Below, piece by piece: positions 654 through 35,732 of a DNA stretch of 64,000 bases (within the stretch, counting starts at the first letter, position 1; each line of letters begins with the position of its first letter). A model generated the notes under the pieces. The model made no database searches. It was not told the origin of the DNA and worked only from the letters and a program-made list of their open reading frames with translations. The position numbers were made by a program, and so were the translations under genes. This DNA comes from Variovorax sp. PAMC26660 (GTDB lineage Bacteria; Pseudomonadota; Gammaproteobacteria; Burkholderiales; Burkholderiaceae_C). Location of the stretch: the NCBI RefSeq assembly GCF_014302995.1, contig NZ_CP060295.1:1612001-1676000 (forward strand), read 5' to 3'.

Positions 654-1991
654 ATGCAAGCGAACACCGATACCGAACTGCACACGCTGGCCGAAGAGGC
701 CGTCGTCTACGCCTTTCCGCTCTACGAGATGGGCCGCATGCGCGCGGCCACCTCGCCGCAGCGCACCGACATCGCCGGCGAGGCGCCGAAGCCCCAGCGC
801 TGGTGCAACGTGTTCACGCACGCGCGGCAGTTGCTGGGCGCGGGCAAGAGTCGCGTGGTGACGCCGAACAATGACACGCTCTACACCAACGCATGGCTCG
901 ACCTGGTCGACGGCCCGCTGGTGATCGACGTGCCGGACACGGCCGGGCGCTACTACGTGCTGGGCCTGCTCGACTTCTACACGAACCCCTTCGTGCACAT
1001 CGGCCAGCGGCTCACGGGCACGGGCGCGCGTTCGTTCCTCGTCACGCCGCCGGGCTGGCGCGGCGAACTGCCTGCCCCATTCCGTGAGGCCGGCGCGCAC
1101 ATCGAAGCGCCCACGCGCTGGCTGTGGATCATCGGCCGCATCCTGGTCGACGGGCTGCAGGACGTGCCTGCGGTCAATGCGCTGCAGGATGGTTTTCTCG
1201 TTCGCACGCTCGATGACTGGCAGGCCGGCAAGCCTTCAAAGCCGAAGCCCTTCGACCCGGCCTGCGACCCGAAGGCACCGCTGACCGCCGAACACTTCGC
1301 GGCGCAGGTGAACCGTGCGCTGCGCGAGAACCCGCCGCCCGCGCGTGATGCCGAATTGATCGCCCGCTTCGCCCAACTCGGGCTCGGGCCTGATGCCGGC
1401 GCATTCGACGAAGCGCAACGTACCGTGCTGCAGGACGCGCTCGATACCGTGCTGCCGCGGCTACGCAACGCGCAGTCCGGCGCCTCGACTTCCACCGGCT
1501 GGGTGCAGATGCCGCTGGTCGAAGGCAGCTTCGGCGACGACCATCTGGCGCGCGCGCTGGTGGCGCTCAAGTACATCGGCATGCTCGAAAGCCGCGAGGC
1601 GACCTATCCGCTCGCATGGCACGACGCCTCGGGCCGCAAGCTGCGCGGAAGCGGCCGCTACACGCTGCGATTCGCGCCCAATGCGATGCCACCGGTCGAG
1701 GCCTTCTGGTCGCTCACGATGTACGACTGCCGCGACTACATGCTGGTCGACAACCCTATCGACCGCTATGCCATCGGCGACCGCACGCCCGCGCTGCGCC
1801 GCGATGCCGACGGCGGGCTCACGCTGCACATCCAGCATGCGCGCCCCGACAGCGAAGCCGCGCAGGCGAACTGGCTGCCCGCGCCCGAAGGCGATTTCTA
1901 CCTTTGCCTTCGCGCCTATGTGCCGCGCACCGAAATGCTGGACGGCCGCTATGCGTTGCCGGCGCTGGTCCGCACCGGGGAGGCCGCATGA
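654..1991 (+). CDS. DUF1254 and DUF1214 domain protein
   Basis: 445 residues, full length for the family. The N-terminal half (about residues 5-150) is DUF1254-like, with EEAVVYAFPLYEMGRMR, VTPNNDTLYTNAWLDL and the block YYVLGLLDFYTNPF. The C-terminal half (about 310-440) is DUF1214-like, with YTLRFAPNAMPPVEAFWSLT, IGDRTPALRR and NWLPAPEGDFYLCLRAYVP. There is no signal peptide, although many relatives are secreted. The stop overlaps the ATG of the next gene (ATGA at 1988-1991), so translation is probably coupled. Function is unknown; the linkage to an alkylsulfatase-like protein and a Bug binding protein suggests uptake or processing of a small organic acid or ester, which is inference only. 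Confidence 0.85.
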   Translation: MQANTDTELHTLAEEAVVYAFPLYEMGRMRAATSPQRTDIAGEAPKPQRWCNVFTHARQLLGAGKSRVVTPNNDTLYTNAWLDLVDGPLVIDVPDTAGRYYVLGLLDFYTNPFVHIGQRLTGTGARSFLVTPPGWRGELPAPFREAGAHIEAPTRWLWIIGRILVDGLQDVPAVNALQDGFLVRTLDDWQAGKPSKPKPFDPACDPKAPLTAEHFAAQVNRALRENPPPARDAELIARFAQLGLGPDAGAFDEAQRTVLQDALDTVLPRLRNAQSGASTSTGWVQMPLVEGSFGDDHLARALVALKYIGMLESREATYPLAWHDASGRKLRGSGRYTLRFAPNAMPPVEAFWSLTMYDCRDYMLVDNPIDRYAIGDRTPALRRDADGGLTLHIQHARPDSEAAQANWLPAPEGDFYLCLRAYVPRTEMLDGRYALPALVRTGEAA

Positions 1992-3247
1992 GCACGAACA
2001 ACGTGGAACAGGAGAAACCCTTCCTCATCGTCGGCACGGGCACCGAGACGGTCGCGCCCGGCCTGCATATCCTGCGTGGACAGGGGCAGTCCTTCGTGGC
2101 CGAGACCGACCTCGGCCTCGTGGTGATCGACGCCGGTCCGGGCGGCTCGGTGACGCAGGGAATGATCGACGCGGTGCGCCAGATCAGCGATGCGCCGCTG
2201 CATGCGCTGTGCTACAGCCACGGGCACGTGGGCTACAACGCCGGCGTGCCGATGTGGCTGGCGCATGCCGCGCAGCGAGGCGATGCGCCGCCACGCGTCA
2301 TCGCGCACCGCAACGTGCCGCGGCGCTATGCGCGCTACCGCGAGACCGAGGCGCTGCAGCACCGCATGGCCGAGATCCAGTTCAACCGGCCTGCCGGCTT
2401 CTTCGACCGCCGGCTCGCCATGCACACGCCGACAGAGACCTTCGACGACCGCCTGCAGATCGGCCACGGCGACCGTCGCGTCGAGCTGCGCTGGGCGCCT
2501 TCGGAAACCGACGACGCGATCGCGCTGTGGAGCCCGGCTCAACGCGTGCTCTACGGCGGCGCGGCGCTGATCGATTCGATTCCCAACATCGGCACGCCCT
2601 TTCGCACGATGCGCGACACGGTGCGCTGGGCCGACACGCTCGATGCGCTCGCAGCACTCGGTGCGCGCAAGGCGGTGCGCGAATTCGGCACCACGCTCGA
2701 AGGCGAGGAACAGGTGCGGCACGTGCTCACGCACACCGCCCGCGCGCTGCGCTGGCTGCGTGCCGAAGTCGTGCGGCTCATGAACGAGGGGCTGAACGAG
2801 CGCGGCATCCTGGCGCGCATCCGCTTTCCCGACGAGCTGTTCGGCGTCGACTGGATGAAGCCCACCTACGGCGACCCTGGCTACATCGTGCGCGACATCT
2901 ACCGCTCGGAGAACGGCTGGTGGGACCGCAACCCGACCTCGCTGCATCCCGAGGCGCCCGAGGCGATAGGGCAGGCCGTGGCCGACGCCATCACCGACAA
3001 GCGCGGCGTGATCACGCATGCAAGCACCTTGGCGCAGGGCGGCAACTGGCAGCTTGCGCTTCACGTGATCGACCTGCTGGCCACCGCCGAGGGCAACGCG
3101 CCAGAGATCGTGGAAGCACGCTCGCTCAAGGCCGAATGGCTTCGCGAGCGCGCACGGCAGGTGCCCAGCTACGTGTCGCGCAACCTGTACCGCGTCGGCG
3201 CGGACATGATCGAGCAGGGAACGCAGGCGCGCTTCGGCATTCACTGA
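1988..3247 (+). CDS. Alkylsulfatase-like metallo-beta-lactamase-fold protein with degenerate metal site
   Basis: 419 residues from the ATG that overlaps the upstream stop. The fold is recognisable: beta-strand block VAETDLGLVVIDAGPGG (about 37-53), motif-1 region YSHGHVGYNAG (about 76-86), an SETDDA block (about 173-178), and a C-terminal alkylsulfatase dimerisation-like region with YRSENGWWDRNPTSLHPE and SYVSRNLYRVGADMI. Catalytic members carry HxHxDH, a ligand Asp near GD, GETDDH and PGHG. Here the first two histidines remain (H78, H80), but D82 is Gly, H83 is Tyr, SETDDA ends in Ala, and the PGHG position reads EFGTTLEG. Metal binding and hydrolysis are therefore doubtful. It may be a pseudoenzyme or a divergent family with other chemistry. 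It is followed after 24 bases by a Bug binding protein. Confidence 0.75.
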   Translation: MSTNNVEQEKPFLIVGTGTETVAPGLHILRGQGQSFVAETDLGLVVIDAGPGGSVTQGMIDAVRQISDAPLHALCYSHGHVGYNAGVPMWLAHAAQRGDAPPRVIAHRNVPRRYARYRETEALQHRMAEIQFNRPAGFFDRRLAMHTPTETFDDRLQIGHGDRRVELRWAPSETDDAIALWSPAQRVLYGGAALIDSIPNIGTPFRTMRDTVRWADTLDALAALGARKAVREFGTTLEGEEQVRHVLTHTARALRWLRAEVVRLMNEGLNERGILARIRFPDELFGVDWMKPTYGDPGYIVRDIYRSENGWWDRNPTSLHPEAPEAIGQAVADAITDKRGVITHASTLAQGGNWQLALHVIDLLATAEGNAPEIVEARSLKAEWLRERARQVPSYVSRNLYRVGADMIEQGTQARFGIH

Positions 3248-5731: not shown

Positions 5732-5751
5732 GGGTGCCCTTTTTCCTTGAA

Positions 5752-6708
5752 ATGTCCGGCGTGATTCTGCGACACACCTTTACCCCACTGAACAATTCGC
5801 GCCTCGGTCACCTGTGCGGCCCCCTGGATGCGCACCTGCGCCGCATCGAGGAAGCCCTGGGAGTGAAGATCGCGCACCGTCACGAGCAGTTCAAGGTCGA
5901 CGGCCCGAAGGCCACCGCGCGGCGCGCAATGGACGTGCTGCAGGCACTCTACGAAATTGCCCAGCGCACGATCGACCCGGCCGTGGTGCAGCTCACGCTG
6001 GCCGGCGACGGCTCGATGACCGAGGGCGACGACGACGCGGCCATGCTCGTCACCCGCCGCCCCGACCTGCGCGCACGCACGCCCACTCAGGCGCTGTATC
6101 TGGACAACATCGCCAAGCACGACATCACTTTCGGCATCGGCCCGGCCGGCACGGGCAAGACTTACCTGGCGGTGGCCTGCGCGGTCGATGCGCTGGAGCG
6201 GGCGGCGGTGCAGCGCATCGTGCTCACGCGTCCGGCGGTGGAAGCGGGCGAGCGGCTCGGCTTCCTGCCGGGTGACCTGACGCAGAAGGTCGACCCGTAT
6301 CTGCGCCCGCTGTACGACGCGCTGTACGACCTGATGGGCTACGAGAAGGTGCAGAAGGCCTTCGAGCGCAATGCGCTGGAGATCGCGCCGCTGGCCTTCA
6401 TGCGCGGGCGCACGCTGAACAACGCTTTCGTGATCCTGGACGAAGCGCAGAACACTTCGGTCGAGCAGATGAAGATGTTCCTCACGCGCATCGGCTTCGG
6501 TGCGCGCGCGGTGGTGACGGGCGACGTGAGCCAGATCGACCTGCCCAAGAACCAACTGAGCGGGCTGATCGACGCGGAGCGCGTGCTCAAGCGCGTGAGC
6601 GGCATCGCGATCACGCACTTCACGAGTGCGGACGTGGTGCGGCATCCGCTGGTGGCGAAGATCGTGGACGCCTATGACGGGCAGCGCAAGCGTGCGGGGG
6701 CTCACTGA
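5752..6708 (+). CDS. ybeZ: PhoH-like ATPase YbeZ
   Basis: 318 residues from ATG 5752; a GTG at 5734 and a GTG at 5758 are alternatives, and an in-frame stop at 5716 limits the choice. None has a good ribosome site. It has the PhoH P-loop [16 protein letters not shown], the Walker B block [11 protein letters not shown], and the [16 protein letters not shown] and GDVSQIDLP motifs typical of YbeZ. The N-terminal part resembles a KH-like RNA-binding region. YbeZ is a putative RNA helicase or NTPase that works with the YbeY endoribonuclease, whose gene follows at 7066. Here the two are separated by a 357-base gap filled with a double-hairpin repeat. Confidence 0.93.
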
Positions 6709-6740
6709 TGCGGGCTTGCTTTTTTGTTCGTCGCGTTGTG

Positions 6741-7016
6741 TTTGGAGTGCGTCGTTCTTCAGGGCGCGCCCACGCCGACGGTGTGCTCTGCTCCGCGAAT
6801 GTCCCCCGGGGCGCTGCGCGCCCCTCCTCCTTTATTTCGCTGCGCAGAGCACACCGCCAGCGTGAGCGTTATGCACAGCGGTCGTTGATCGGCTGCACAC
6901 CAGCAGCGTGCCCTGTGCGCATGACACCGGGTGCTCCCCGCAGCGAAATAAAGGAGGAGCGAAGCGGGGGACATTCGCACAGGGGAGTACCCGGTGTCAT
7001 TCGCACAAGCCCCGAA
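6741..7016 (+). repeat. Double-hairpin dispersed repeat, copy A (in ybeZ-ybeY operon)
   Basis: This 276-base element fills the only long gap between ybeZ and ybeY; outside it, 6709-6740 and 7017-7065 hold nothing recognisable except the ybeY ribosome site. The reverse complement of it occurs at 34570-34836. It contains two stem-loops: arms 6767-6791 with 6844-6868 (25 bases, 3 mismatches) and arms 6915-6939 with 6982-7006 (25 bases, 2 mismatches). Each loop holds an inner module running from GCGAATGTCCCCC through TCCTCCTTTATTTCGC, in opposite orientations. The linker 6875-6914 contains GGTCGTTGATCGGCTGCACA and is nearly identical in copy B. In the first loop the inner hairpin is replaced by a GGGGCGC/GCGCCCC stem. 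No credible gene lies within it. Confidence 0.9.
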
Positions 7017-7065
7017 TGTATCCAGCATCCGCACCCGCAGCACAACGCCCAACGGAGCCACTGAA

Positions 7066-7524
7066 ATGGCACTCCCCACACTGTCACTCTCCCTGCAGTT
7101 CGGTCGTTTCAAAGGCGTCGAACGGCATCGCGCCGCATTGCCGCGCCACAGCGTGACGCGCTGGATTCGCCATGCGCTCGACATCGACGGCGAGATCACC
7201 GTGCGCATCGTCGATGCCGACGAAGGCCAGCGCCTGAACCGCGAGTTCCGCGGCAAGGACTACGCCACCAACGTGCTGACCTTCGACTATGCGAACAACC
7301 CGCTGGTGATGGCCGACCTGGTGCTGTGCGCGCCGGTGGTCGCGCGCGAGGCGAAGGAAAACCGCAAGACGCTGGCCGCGCACTACGCGCACCTGCTGGT
7401 GCACGGCACGCTGCACGCGCAGGGCTGGGACCACGAGACCAGCGAAGGCGACGCCGATGAGATGGAAGCGTACGAAATCGAGATTCTTGCGGGCCTGGGC
7501 ATTCGCAATCCCTACGGCAAGTAG
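7066..7524 (+). CDS. ybeY: Endoribonuclease YbeY (rRNA maturation factor)
   Basis: 152 residues from ATG 7066, chosen because an AACGGAG ribosome site lies about 9 bases upstream and the family begins here; an in-frame ATG at 6994 lies in the repeat and is not used. YbeY is a zinc-dependent single-strand endoribonuclease involved in 16S rRNA 3' maturation and ribosome quality control. The metal site [11 protein letters not shown] has three histidines in the H-x3-H-x5-H spacing. Upstream, [17 protein letters not shown] is also diagnostic. It follows ybeZ as usual, but with the repeat in between. The next gene begins 2 bases after its stop. Confidence 0.95.
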
Positions 7525-24616: not shown

Positions 24617-24646
24617 AAAAAACTCACCGCGAGAACAGCGGATGAG
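24617..24646 (-). terminator. Attenuator terminator in ahcY leader
   Basis: On the minus strand CTCATCCGC (24638-24646) pairs with GCGGTGAG (24623-24630), one bulged T, 7-base loop, followed by six T (24617-24622). The 5' arm overlaps the last strand of the SAH riboswitch pseudoknot (CGCTC, 24644-24648). Binding of SAH should therefore compete with terminator formation. Confidence 0.7.
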
Positions 24647-24704
24647 CGTGGTTGCGATGTGGTCCGAGCCTCACGCCTGATGGCGCTGCAACGCTCCTCG
24701 GAAC
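24640..24704 (-). ncRNA. SAH riboswitch upstream of ahcY
   Basis: In transcript order the segment has CCGAGGAGCGTTGC, a short hairpin (GCGCC-ATCA-GGCGT), AGGCTCGG and then GCAACCACGCTCA. This is the SAH riboswitch pattern: P1 from CCGAG/CTCGG, and a pseudoknot from GAGCG plus TTGC with GCAA plus CGCTC. SAH riboswitches are known upstream of ahcY in proteobacteria and turn the gene on when SAH accumulates. The ahcY start follows 66 bases later, after a terminator-like hairpin. Confidence 0.88.
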
Positions 24705-24709
24705 CGCGG

Positions 24710-33696: not shown

Positions 33697-34500
33697 TCAA
33701 CTCCCGGTTGAGGCGTAGCGCCGCAGCCCCAGCCGCCACACGCCGAAGGCGGCGGCCAGAAACACGAAGCCCGCGAGCGGGGACACCATGCCCATCCAAT
33801 CCGGTGCCCCCAGCGGATCGGGCTTGCCGAGGATGGTCAGCGCCGGGTAATAGGCCACGCAGGCCAACGGCACAACGAAGGTCAGCACACGGCGGAACCA
33901 GTTCGCGTACAGCGCCAGCGGGTACTGCGCCGCCTGCACGCCGCCGTAGGTGAGCACGTTGGCAATCTCCAGGCTCTCGACGGTCCAGAACGCCAGCGTG
34001 CCCTGCAGCACCAGGATGCCGAGGAACAGCGCGATGCCGCCGGCCAGCGCGAACAGCGCCACGGCCACCGTGGCCGGCGTCCATGCAATGCCCGCCTGGT
34101 ACGTGGCGAACACCATCACCCCGATGCCCTGCAACAGCCGGCCCATGCGGCTGATGCGGAAGTCATGCCCCATCAGTTGCAGCGCGAGCGGGCGCGGGCG
34201 CAGCAGCAGGCGATCGAACGCGCCGGTGCGCAGGAACTCGGTGCCGAGCACATCGAAGCCGCGCCCCAGCGCATCGGCGATGGCGAACATGCAGTTCACC
34301 AGACCGTAGAACAGCGCCACCTCGCCGATGTGCCAGCCCTGCACGTCGCCAAAGCGGTGGAACAGCGCCCAGACGGCGACCACCTCGATGCCACTGCCCA
34401 GGAACTGGCCCAGGGTCAGCAGCAGCGCCGAGGCGGGATAGCGCGCCTGGCCGCCGACTGACGCCTGCACGAGACGGAAGAAGAGAGGGAGCGAGCCCAT
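33697..34500 (-). CDS. ABC-2 type transporter permease, second subunit
   Basis: 267 residues from ATG 34500 (MGSLPLFFRLVQASVGGQ); longer frames enter the repeat and are rejected. Six membrane segments are visible. The region LLRPRPLALQLMGHDFRISR is typical of the ABC-2 (DUF990-like) permeases found in ATPase-permease-permease operons. It is the third gene of the exporter operon (ATPase at 36724, permease at 35732, then this gene) but is set apart from the second by 374 bases that hold a double-hairpin repeat. Confidence 0.85.
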   Translation of the reverse strand: MGSLPLFFRLVQASVGGQARYPASALLLTLGQFLGSGIEVVAVWALFHRFGDVQGWHIGEVALFYGLVNCMFAIADALGRGFDVLGTEFLRTGAFDRLLLRPRPLALQLMGHDFRISRMGRLLQGIGVMVFATYQAGIAWTPATVAVALFALAGGIALFLGILVLQGTLAFWTVESLEIANVLTYGGVQAAQYPLALYANWFRRVLTFVVPLACVAYYPALTILGKPDPLGAPDWMGMVSPLAGFVFLAAAFGVWRLGLRRYASTGS

Positions 34501-34569
34501 TTCAGTTGCCCTTCCTCGTTTTGTGATGCGGTTCTTTTGTGTTCGGGCGTGTTCGTTCAGGGGAGTTCG

Positions 34570-34836
34570 TTCGGGGCGCGTGCGAATGACACCGGGTACT
34601 CCCCTCCGCGAATGTCCCCCGCTTCGCTCCTCCTTTATTTCGCTGCGGGGAGCACCCGGTGTCATTCGCACAGGGACGCGCTGCTGGTGTGCAGCCGATC
34701 AACGACCGCTCTGTCCAACGCTCACGTCGATACGGGGCTCTTTTTCGCGAAATAAAGGAGGAGCGAAGCGGGGAACATTCGCGAAAAAGAGCACCGTGTC
34801 GGCGTGAGCGACGCCCTGAACAACCGCGCCCCAAAC
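34570..34836 (-). repeat. Double-hairpin dispersed repeat, copy B (in ABC exporter operon)
   Basis: This is the reverse complement of the element at 6741-7016 and occupies most of the 34501-34874 gap; the flanks hold nothing else recognisable. Stem-loops: arms 34580-34604 with 34647-34671 (25 bases, 1 mismatch) and arms 34719-34751 with 34778-34810 (33 bases, about 3 mismatches). The second stem has the perfect inner part CTCTTTTTCGCGAA with its complement, where copy A has GGTGTGCTCTGC with its complement. The linker GCTGCTGGTGTGCAGCCGAT at 34679-34698 is shared. Confidence 0.9.
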
Positions 34837-34874
34837 GAACAGCGCGAAGAACAGAAAGGCAGGAAATTTCCATC

Positions 34875-35732
34875 CTAGCCACCCTGAATCTGAAGACTGC
34901 GCATCGTGCGCCCCATCGCGAACCGGCCCAACGTGACCAGCACCGCGATCCAGAAGCACTGCAGGCCCAAGCCGGCCAGCGCATGCCAGCCGCTCAGTTG
35001 CCCGAAGTACAACCGCGCCGGAATGTCCATCAGGCCAGCCAATGGCTGAATCAGCAGTGCGGTCTGCCAGGCATCCGGCATCAGCGCGAGCGGCAGCAGG
35101 TTGCCCGAGAGCACGATGACCACAGGTGTCGCCACCGCGTTGATGCCGCGCTCGTTCAGCGCCGCCGTGGCTGCCACGTTGAGCAGCATCACCATCGACG
35201 CCGAAAGCAGCAGTGCGAGCAACGCCGACAACAGGAACGCGACGGCCGCCGTCACGCTCGCGGGCAATTGCCAGGCCCAGTCGCCCAAGCCCGTCAGCGG
35301 CAGAGCGACCGCGGCGAAAGCGGCCATGAGCGCCACGCGCGGCAGCAGACGCGCTGCGATCCAGCCGGCGCTGCGCGCGAACCAGAGCGCGTAAGCGTCC
35401 ACCGGACGCAGCCGGTCGTAGGCGACCGCGCCGGTGCGCACGGCCTGCCCCACCTCCGGGTCGCCCAGCCAGGGCATCAGCACGAGCATGCCCTGCGCGA
35501 GCCAGGTGTAGGTAATGGCTTGTGCGAGCGACATCGACGAACTCGCGCCCGCAATGGCCGTCCCGCCGTAGAACGCGGCGAACACCATCACCTTGATGCC
35601 GCCCCACCAGCACTGCGTTGCAAAGCCCGCGAGCGCGGCCGTTCGGTACTGCAGCATCTGCAGGAAGCGCGAAGCAAAGGCCGCGACGTAAGGGCGCACC
35701 GTGTCTCGCAGGCCGTGCGTGCGCGTGCTCAT
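34875..35732 (-). CDS. ABC-2 type transporter permease, first subunit
   Basis: 285 residues with six membrane segments. Blocks such as YRTAALAGFATQCWWGGIKV (about 29-48) and QAVRTGAVAYDRLRPVDAYA are typical of ABC-2 permeases of this operon type. Its ATG overlaps the ATPase stop (35729-35732). It should form a heterodimer with the 33697-34500 product. Substrate unknown; polysaccharide, lipid or drug export are all possible. Confidence 0.88.
   Translation of the reverse strand: MSTRTHGLRDTVRPYVAAFASRFLQMLQYRTAALAGFATQCWWGGIKVMVFAAFYGGTAIAGASSSMSLAQAITYTWLAQGMLVLMPWLGDPEVGQAVRTGAVAYDRLRPVDAYALWFARSAGWIAARLLPRVALMAAFAAVALPLTGLGDWAWQLPASVTAAVAFLLSALLALLLSASMVMLLNVAATAALNERGINAVATPVVIVLSGNLLPLALMPDAWQTALLIQPLAGLMDIPARLYFGQLSGWHALAGLGLQCFWIAVLVTLGRFAMGRTMRSLQIQGG

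Follow-up and report, generated by a model that had tools for sequence, protein, structure and literature searches.

A dispersed double-hairpin repeat of Variovorax whose copies inside operons mostly keep an open reading frame coupled to the neighbouring genes

Introduction

In Variovorax sp. PAMC26660 the genes ybeZ and ybeY, which are normally adjacent, are separated by a sequence predicted to fold into two long hairpins. What is this sequence, and how is it accommodated between two genes of one operon? A first, sequence-only reading had described it as copy A of a family of double-hairpin repeats placed inside operons, with an inverse copy (copy B) at 34570-34836, and had proposed a role in mRNA processing, differential decay or partial termination. 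We report here a computational analysis of both copies in the window, that is the whole 64,000-nucleotide stretch of DNA under study, and of related sequences in other genomes.

Results

Two inverted modules make up each copy

The features of the two loci are as follows, in window coordinates.

5734..6708, + strand: ybeZ (PhoH-like), upstream of copy A (PF02562, E 2e-95)
6708..7064, + strand: copy A-spanning open reading frame (ORF), 118 aa; its ATG overlaps the ybeZ stop (TGATG)
6741..7016: copy A as first delimited, two hairpins and a linker
6769..6866: copy A hairpin 1, motif on the − strand (covariance model, 90.6 bits)
6867..6916, + strand: copy A linker, the interval between the two model matches
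6917..7004: copy A hairpin 2, motif on the + strand (covariance model, 83.4 bits)
7066..7524, + strand: ybeY, downstream of copy A (PF02130, E 5e-27)
33697..34500, − strand: ABC-2 type permease, downstream of copy B (PF06182, E 3e-47)
34502..34873, − strand: copy B-spanning ORF, 123 aa, with TAG-G-ATG at its start and TGA-A-ATG at its end
34570..34836: copy B, inverse element, two hairpins and a linker
34582..34669: copy B hairpin 2 in reading direction, motif on the − strand (covariance model, 90 bits)
34721..34808: copy B hairpin 1 in reading direction, motif on the + strand (covariance model, 77 bits)
34875..35732, − strand: ABC-2 type permease, upstream of copy B (PF12698, a weak match at 23 bits for a cut-off of 31.6)

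A covariance model, with six modules from PAMC26660 itself among its input, found exactly four modules in the 64-kb window, with E values of 1e-15 to 1e-18. The two long stem-loops and their opposite inner modules were thereby confirmed, the latter being a single motif, GCGAAATAAAGGAGGAG...GGGGGACATTCGC, on opposite strands. From one end to the other, each hairpin (~88-105 nt) comprises a variable arm, the sequence GCGAAATAAAGGAGGAG, an inner hairpin of small size, the sequence GGGGGACATTCGC and an arm that matches the first. Its module is directed leftwards in hairpin 1 and rightwards in hairpin 2, so that each DNA strand carries one. Folding of the 276-nt stretch of copy A was predicted to be very stable (z = −7.8; 0 of 200 shuffles as stable), and terminal inverted repeats, TGTTCAGGGCG...CGCCCTGAACA, with variants, were present at the ends of many PAMC26660 copies. 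Copy B also lies in an operon, as announced, its ORF standing between genes of the − strand. The unit found in the operon is wider than 276 nt, and corresponds to the ORF (6708-7064 for copy A, 34873-34502 on the − strand for copy B). That of copy A ends with a TGA one base ahead of the ybeY ATG (TGAAATG), and fills the ybeZ-ybeY gap.

A conserved folded motif

The predicted pairing held over many copies. Among 72 aligned modules from many genera, 24 of the 27 predicted pairs showed compensatory change and three were invariant; the invariant alignment columns were internal, none being conserved at the hairpin feet. In an alignment-free check with 153 modules outside PAMC26660, the arms of one module scored 20.5 out of 25 for pairing, compared to 10.1 for swapped arms. 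The same score for the 223 modules of PAMC26660 was 22.0 with their own arms and 16.5 with swapped arms, the latter value being higher because the arms of these modules are alike. The inner-loop stem was also longer than in shuffles (5.5 versus 3.5 pairs, 127 modules).

The internal loop was analysed in 181 modules, a few of them from PAMC26660. Its 3′ side, left free in the search pattern, was GG-N-GG-A in 177 of the 181, N being G in 168 and A in 13; its 5′ side was biased to A by the pattern, and in the 8 modules with G as the 5′ middle base the 3′ middle base was A in all 8. On the motif strand, the partners GCGAAA/ATTCGC and GCGAAG/ATGAGC accounted for 172 of the 181 modules (p = 5e-37, uncorrected for relatedness). 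Some of these pairings depart from the Watson-Crick rules, and they are maintained on the motif strand, which points to a function for this strand when single and folded. We take a (GGA)4-type quadruplex or a multi-GGA protein site to be candidate identities of the GGRGGA loop. Kissing between the two complementary loops was considered and rejected as a conserved feature: the inner loop was identical within 2 of 44 pairs, a rate like that of random pairs (0.038).

No Rfam family (4227 families, gathering score) was found at the module, in the window and in 16 module loci; below the cut-off, only MIR898 (32 bits versus 75) and two weaker chance matches appeared. Given its strong conservation and the lack of an Rfam match, the hairpin motif is probably read by some enzyme or binding protein. 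Elsewhere in the window, at 24637-24705 on the − strand, Rfam recognised a SAH riboswitch (51 bits for a gathering score of 37).

Copy number and distribution

The family proved to be of high copy number, as had been supposed: the motif core was found 174 times in forward and 173 times in reverse orientation in PAMC26660 (one contig, 7.39 Mb), and a reversed-pattern control gave 0. Two right-arm variants had 139 and 32 matches in this genome. At least 135 distinct elements were collected from it, positions past ~4.8 Mb being under-sampled.

In the genus, 89 of 100 genomes contained a short core (≤2 mismatches) and 52 had at least 10 matches; the control reached up to 3 matches per genome, so that low counts mean little. 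Allowing one mismatch, the short core was present in 97 of 299 family genomes and in 58 of 141 genera (four genomes belonging to the genus itself), with two control matches overall. The long loop pattern was confined to PAMC26660 among the 299, because the loop centre differs between species. When the best ten first-look candidates per genome were scored with the covariance model, at least 11 of 398 phylum genomes were positive, 7 in the same family, PAMC26660 included, and 4 in a single further family of the class. Among the matches listed, modules were recognised in Ramlibacter, Rhodoferax, Hydrogenophaga, Pseudorhodoferax, Aquabacterium, Rubrivivax and Sulfurisoma, as well as in Lysobacter, Luteimonas, Thermomonas and Stenotrophomonas; in Bifidobacterium, Paenibacillus and some other matches the remainder of the module was missing. 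Besides Variovorax, these matches place the family in other Burkholderiales and in Lysobacter-type bacteria. Two contigs titled Bacillus subtilis SK7B5 (L278 and L304) carried modules like those of Stenotrophomonas-type genomes, and are probably mislabelled or contaminated. An RNase P RNA gene adjoins a module pair in Luteimonas colneyensis (L255:4093-4446).

Phages gave no match to the element, and three plasmid records, all from Variovorax, matched. Copy A had no match at E 1e-5 among 20,395 E. coli records. A literature search outside subscription journals returned, among the matches listed, no published description of this element; those papers listed as containing pieces of the motif did not concern bacterial repeats of such kind.

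Empty sites and the search for a mover

Copy A does split two normally adjacent genes. ybeY was present in 98 of the 100 genus genomes, and the ybeZ-ybeY junction was empty in 29 out of 29 most similar relatives (no core within 420 nt), the empty junctions mostly reading CACTGAGATG or alike. In genome G062, 14 of the 135 elements could be compared, both flanks lying within the ~0.6 Mb part that was fetched. Eleven of these sites were without module, one of them having a sequence like the outer ends of the element; remnants, a single-hairpin form and a filled site were found once each. CACTGA is present on both sides of copy A at ybeZ-ybeY; it was not consistent over the 14 sites, nor was a consistent target-site duplication seen over copies with a TAG upstream stop. 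Among 49 pairs of adjacent modules within 250 bp, 45 were −/+ and 4 −/−, with no +/− or +/+ pair. Taken together, the element is present in many copies, its folded motif is conserved, relatives have empty sites, and its modules keep a fixed inverted order.

The mover candidate searched across genomes was Y1_Tnp, the RAYT domain. It was rejected: the core was found in 0 of 30 Y1_Tnp loci (~3.3 kb each). A Y1_Tnp gene was present in 96 of the 100 genus genomes (one match each in 93 of them), with no relation to copy number. All 11 genus genomes without core match still have the gene, and G035 (99% complete), which is without it, has 14 core matches. The RAYT-type gene of PAMC26660 lies at L061:1501-1836, just before a gene that we take to be glutamate-synthase-like. 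An autonomous parent between far-apart modules was also sought and discarded, as no transposase was present in the two intervals examined, L302 and L344. In the former, the 3.8 kb between near-identical modules hold EamA, alcohol dehydrogenase, DUF520 and DUF1415 genes. In the latter (1732-3085), inverted modules 1.3 kb apart flank a gene for an Mrr-type restriction endonuclease (PF04471, PF14338), which looks as if it were cargo that had entered between the hairpins.

Single hairpins with a left arm of one type and a right arm of the other were seen near 14919 in L345 and near 1246 in L283, as expected from recombination between two modules. In L346, near-identical modules (near 1594 and 1930) follow each other in head-to-tail order at a spacing of 336 bp, and enclose a diverged hairpin.

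Elements lie behind genes

Neighbouring genes were assigned with our own codon-score gene caller, which made at least two errors (loci L114 and L134), taking the orientation of copy A as forward. The neighbour strands of the 135 elements were ++ in 76 cases, +− in 39, −− in 15 and −+ in 5. No element lay within a called gene, and the left + gene ended 4-90 nt from the core in 111 of 115 cases. The same caller applied to G062 gave a background of 483 gaps, 349 co-directional, 69 convergent and 65 divergent. The proposed placement inside operons stood in part: 91 of the 135 elements are found between co-directional genes, which is no preference for operons as such, since the background is already 349 of 483 (p = 0.28). 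Convergent gaps were over-represented (39/135 versus 69/483, p = 0.0002) and divergent ones avoided (5/135 versus 65/483, p = 0.001). The placement rule is therefore "behind a gene", not "inside operons". A pattern scan detected no T-run terminator after either hairpin of copy A; the two terminator-like sites that it did return (0.6 expected from shuffling) were both upstream of hairpins.

Inside operons, the element is an ORF coupled to both neighbours

What is new here is that the intraoperonic element is an ORF coupled to the genes on either side. An ATG was present at −4..+3 of the upstream stop in 46 of the 76 ++ copies, versus 2 of the 39 convergent ones and 91 of the 349 ordinary co-directional junctions of G062 (p = 2e-8); the figure for co-directional junctions of the window is 13 of 39. 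A common frame was used in 39 of these 46 copies (p = 8e-13), with start-to-core distances of 71 to 149 in steps of three; the exceptions, 425 and 452, fit the gene-call errors L114 and L134. Among the 39 coupled copies, 29 read past the core and 7 end at the right end of hairpin 2, and the rest are L112, which stops in loop 2, and the two gene-call errors. Both hairpins are hence passed in 36 of 37 sound cases. Reading through occurred in any frame in 31 copies, 22 of which end within −4..+3 of the next start. We conclude that ++ copies mostly keep one ORF, from the upstream stop codon to, often, the downstream start codon. Uncoupled ++ copies either had no ATG at the upstream stop (30/76) or used another frame (7/46). 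There was no clear tie between coupling and closeness of the next gene (34/61 near, 5/15 far, p = 0.15).

Closed copies had a different distribution. A hairpin-1 variant, TTTAGCTAA, which places a TAG in frame, was found in 0 of the 39 coupled copies versus 19 of the 39 convergent ones (p = 2e-7), and elsewhere in 7 of 37 other ++, 2 of 15 −− and 3 of 5 −+ copies, four further copies with related arm forms being left out of this count. At least one forward frame was open in 66 of 76 ++ copies versus 20 of 39 +− copies. The reverse strand was open in 19 of 135 elements. It was closed in all 15 reversed co-directional copies, which had no coupled ATG and a single GTG that stops at once; the orientation bias, 76 versus 15, fits with a closed reverse strand. 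Hairpin 2 is open in two of the three linker phases, and the coupled copies were distributed as 24 and 14 of 39 in the open phases and one in the closed phase. Since both open phases are in use, it is openness, and not a peptide, that appears to be kept.

Other loci provided 38 inverted pairs, 6 of them at contig edges; 25 of the 32 left were co-directional, and 3 of these were PAMC26660 copies met again, which leaves 22. An ATG or GTG was found at the upstream stop in 14, and 8 had no coupled start. Of the 14, 12 read through both hairpins (L238 and L329 stop early), compared to an open-frame rate of 18/42 for the same elements (p = 0.001). Five of the 12 end within −4..+4 of the next start, in G338 (L215), an unclassified Pseudomonadota (L237), Sulfurisoma (L258), Aquabacterium (L266) and Variovorax (L328).

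Discussion

With moderate confidence, we propose that the element is a dispersing, non-autonomous double-hairpin repeat, BIME/REPIN-like, that is tolerated in operons because it is still translatable. Ribosomes leaving the upstream gene would translate through the element and melt its hairpins, so that coupling within the operon would be maintained and the transcript shielded from Rho; untranslatable copies would be lost from operons, and those in convergent gaps would be free of this constraint. What counts for the element itself would be the hairpin in its folded, single-stranded state, perhaps most likely as the ssDNA substrate of some moving enzyme, this being the least certain step. The hairpins would then serve the spread of the element itself, and the frame would limit harm to the host. 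Such a repeat suggests a way for repeated DNA to enter tight operons without breaking them, by being translatable and coupled to the codons of its neighbours. As natural copies exist with and without the frame, the cost of untranslated operon spacers becomes directly testable.

Alternatively, it may be that the hairpins act at the RNA level, as 3′-end stabilisers, exonuclease blocks, or sites of processing or partial termination. We regard this as possible though rather unlikely. A position 3′ of genes and the enrichment in convergent gaps would serve mRNA 3′ ends, folding is very stable, and structure is conserved on the motif strand. However, operon copies are translatable in one orientation, and translation would melt the hairpins; those of copy A have no T-run terminator, and the two terminator-like sites lie upstream. 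Moreover, each transcript would contain one motif hairpin and one complement, whichever the reading direction. Nothing found here supports the first proposal of a role in mRNA processing, in differential decay or in partial termination, and the operon element is laid out for translation-through.

Selection for the open frame is suggested by contrasts between gene contexts; part of the frame pattern could also come from a coupled subfamily that was inherited. The left-end sequence is common to the coupled copies, which may for this reason be one inherited subfamily, and copies with the closing variant have a single hairpin-arm form in common. In the full version of this explanation, which we find unlikely, the frame is inherited and not selected: a subfamily with ATG and open frame inserts at stop-start junctions, and a closed-frame one between convergent genes. 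Against it stand the read-through coupled elements of other genera, with different arms and linkers (12/14), the three-step variation of start-to-core distances and the use of two linker phases that are both open.

It is also conceivable, if doubtful, that we are dealing with a new class of mobile hairpin element, in which a folded single-strand motif does the work while the element poses as an operon gene. The motif would be two helices around an internal loop with GGRGGA on both sides, whose four GG tracts possibly form a small G-quadruplex or a protein site, and in operons the element would have evolved a start codon and a stop codon of its own at the junctions, with an open frame between them. 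Such a portable joint may cut off the downstream genes when ribosomes no longer arrive and the hairpins fold.

Finally, a real small protein whose function keeps the element in operons is most improbable: the ORF does have ~100-135 codons with start and stop at gene junctions, but it had no Pfam or NCBIfam match and 7 homologues at E ≤ 0.001 among 5.8 billion proteins (one with a precomputed PF24481 covering 29% of the query, one named hypothetical protein), the reading frame across hairpin 2 is one of two, depending on the copy, and the peptides from different genera look unrelated.

Comparison with known systems

The tolerated, translatable repeat that we favour shares with REPs, BIMEs and REPINs (the last reportedly treated by Bertels in 2011) its nature of high-copy intergenic palindrome close to genes, in inverted pairs with a linker (45/49 −/+). 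REPs are associated with RAYT transposases (Nunvar 2010, PMC2817692) and include GTAG and CGTC types (PMC3733652). REPs and REPINs are presumed to move as folded ssDNA, a point in which the present element may be likened to them. In contrast to the 20-40 bp given for REPs in the abstract of PMC3733652, hairpins here are ~88-105 nt; the conserved part is the internal loop instead of a tetranucleotide at the foot, the 72 aligned modules being without GTAG- or CGTC-type foot tag; and no module flanks the RAYT-type genes of the 30 loci examined. The sequence-only reading was right that the composite build is unlike REP or ERIC. ERIC, an intergenic palindromic repeat near gene ends as well, is 127 bp long according to PMC2229807, and copy A was unmatched in the E. 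coli records.

The BRE repeat of Bordetella and Comamonadaceae (~90 bp, GC-rich, 29 copies in Polaromonas JS666) has roughly the size of one module, a comparison made by description only; its excerpted description (PMC3110155) reports tandem arrays, and mentions no inverted pair or ORF. MITEs are similar in being non-autonomous, of hundreds of bp, and with inverted ends, here TGTTCAGGGCG...CGCCCTGAACA; the element differs from them by its two internal structured modules, and a target-site duplication consistent over the sites compared was not seen. The Chunjie MITE, by the title cited in PMC10969869, inserts into an operon that stays undisturbed. The Rickettsia palindromic elements, lastly, are likewise small palindromic repeats translatable in frame (PMC2229807 and PMC10969869, in excerpt). 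These are described there as fused into host proteins, whereas the element presented here forms a separate ORF between genes.
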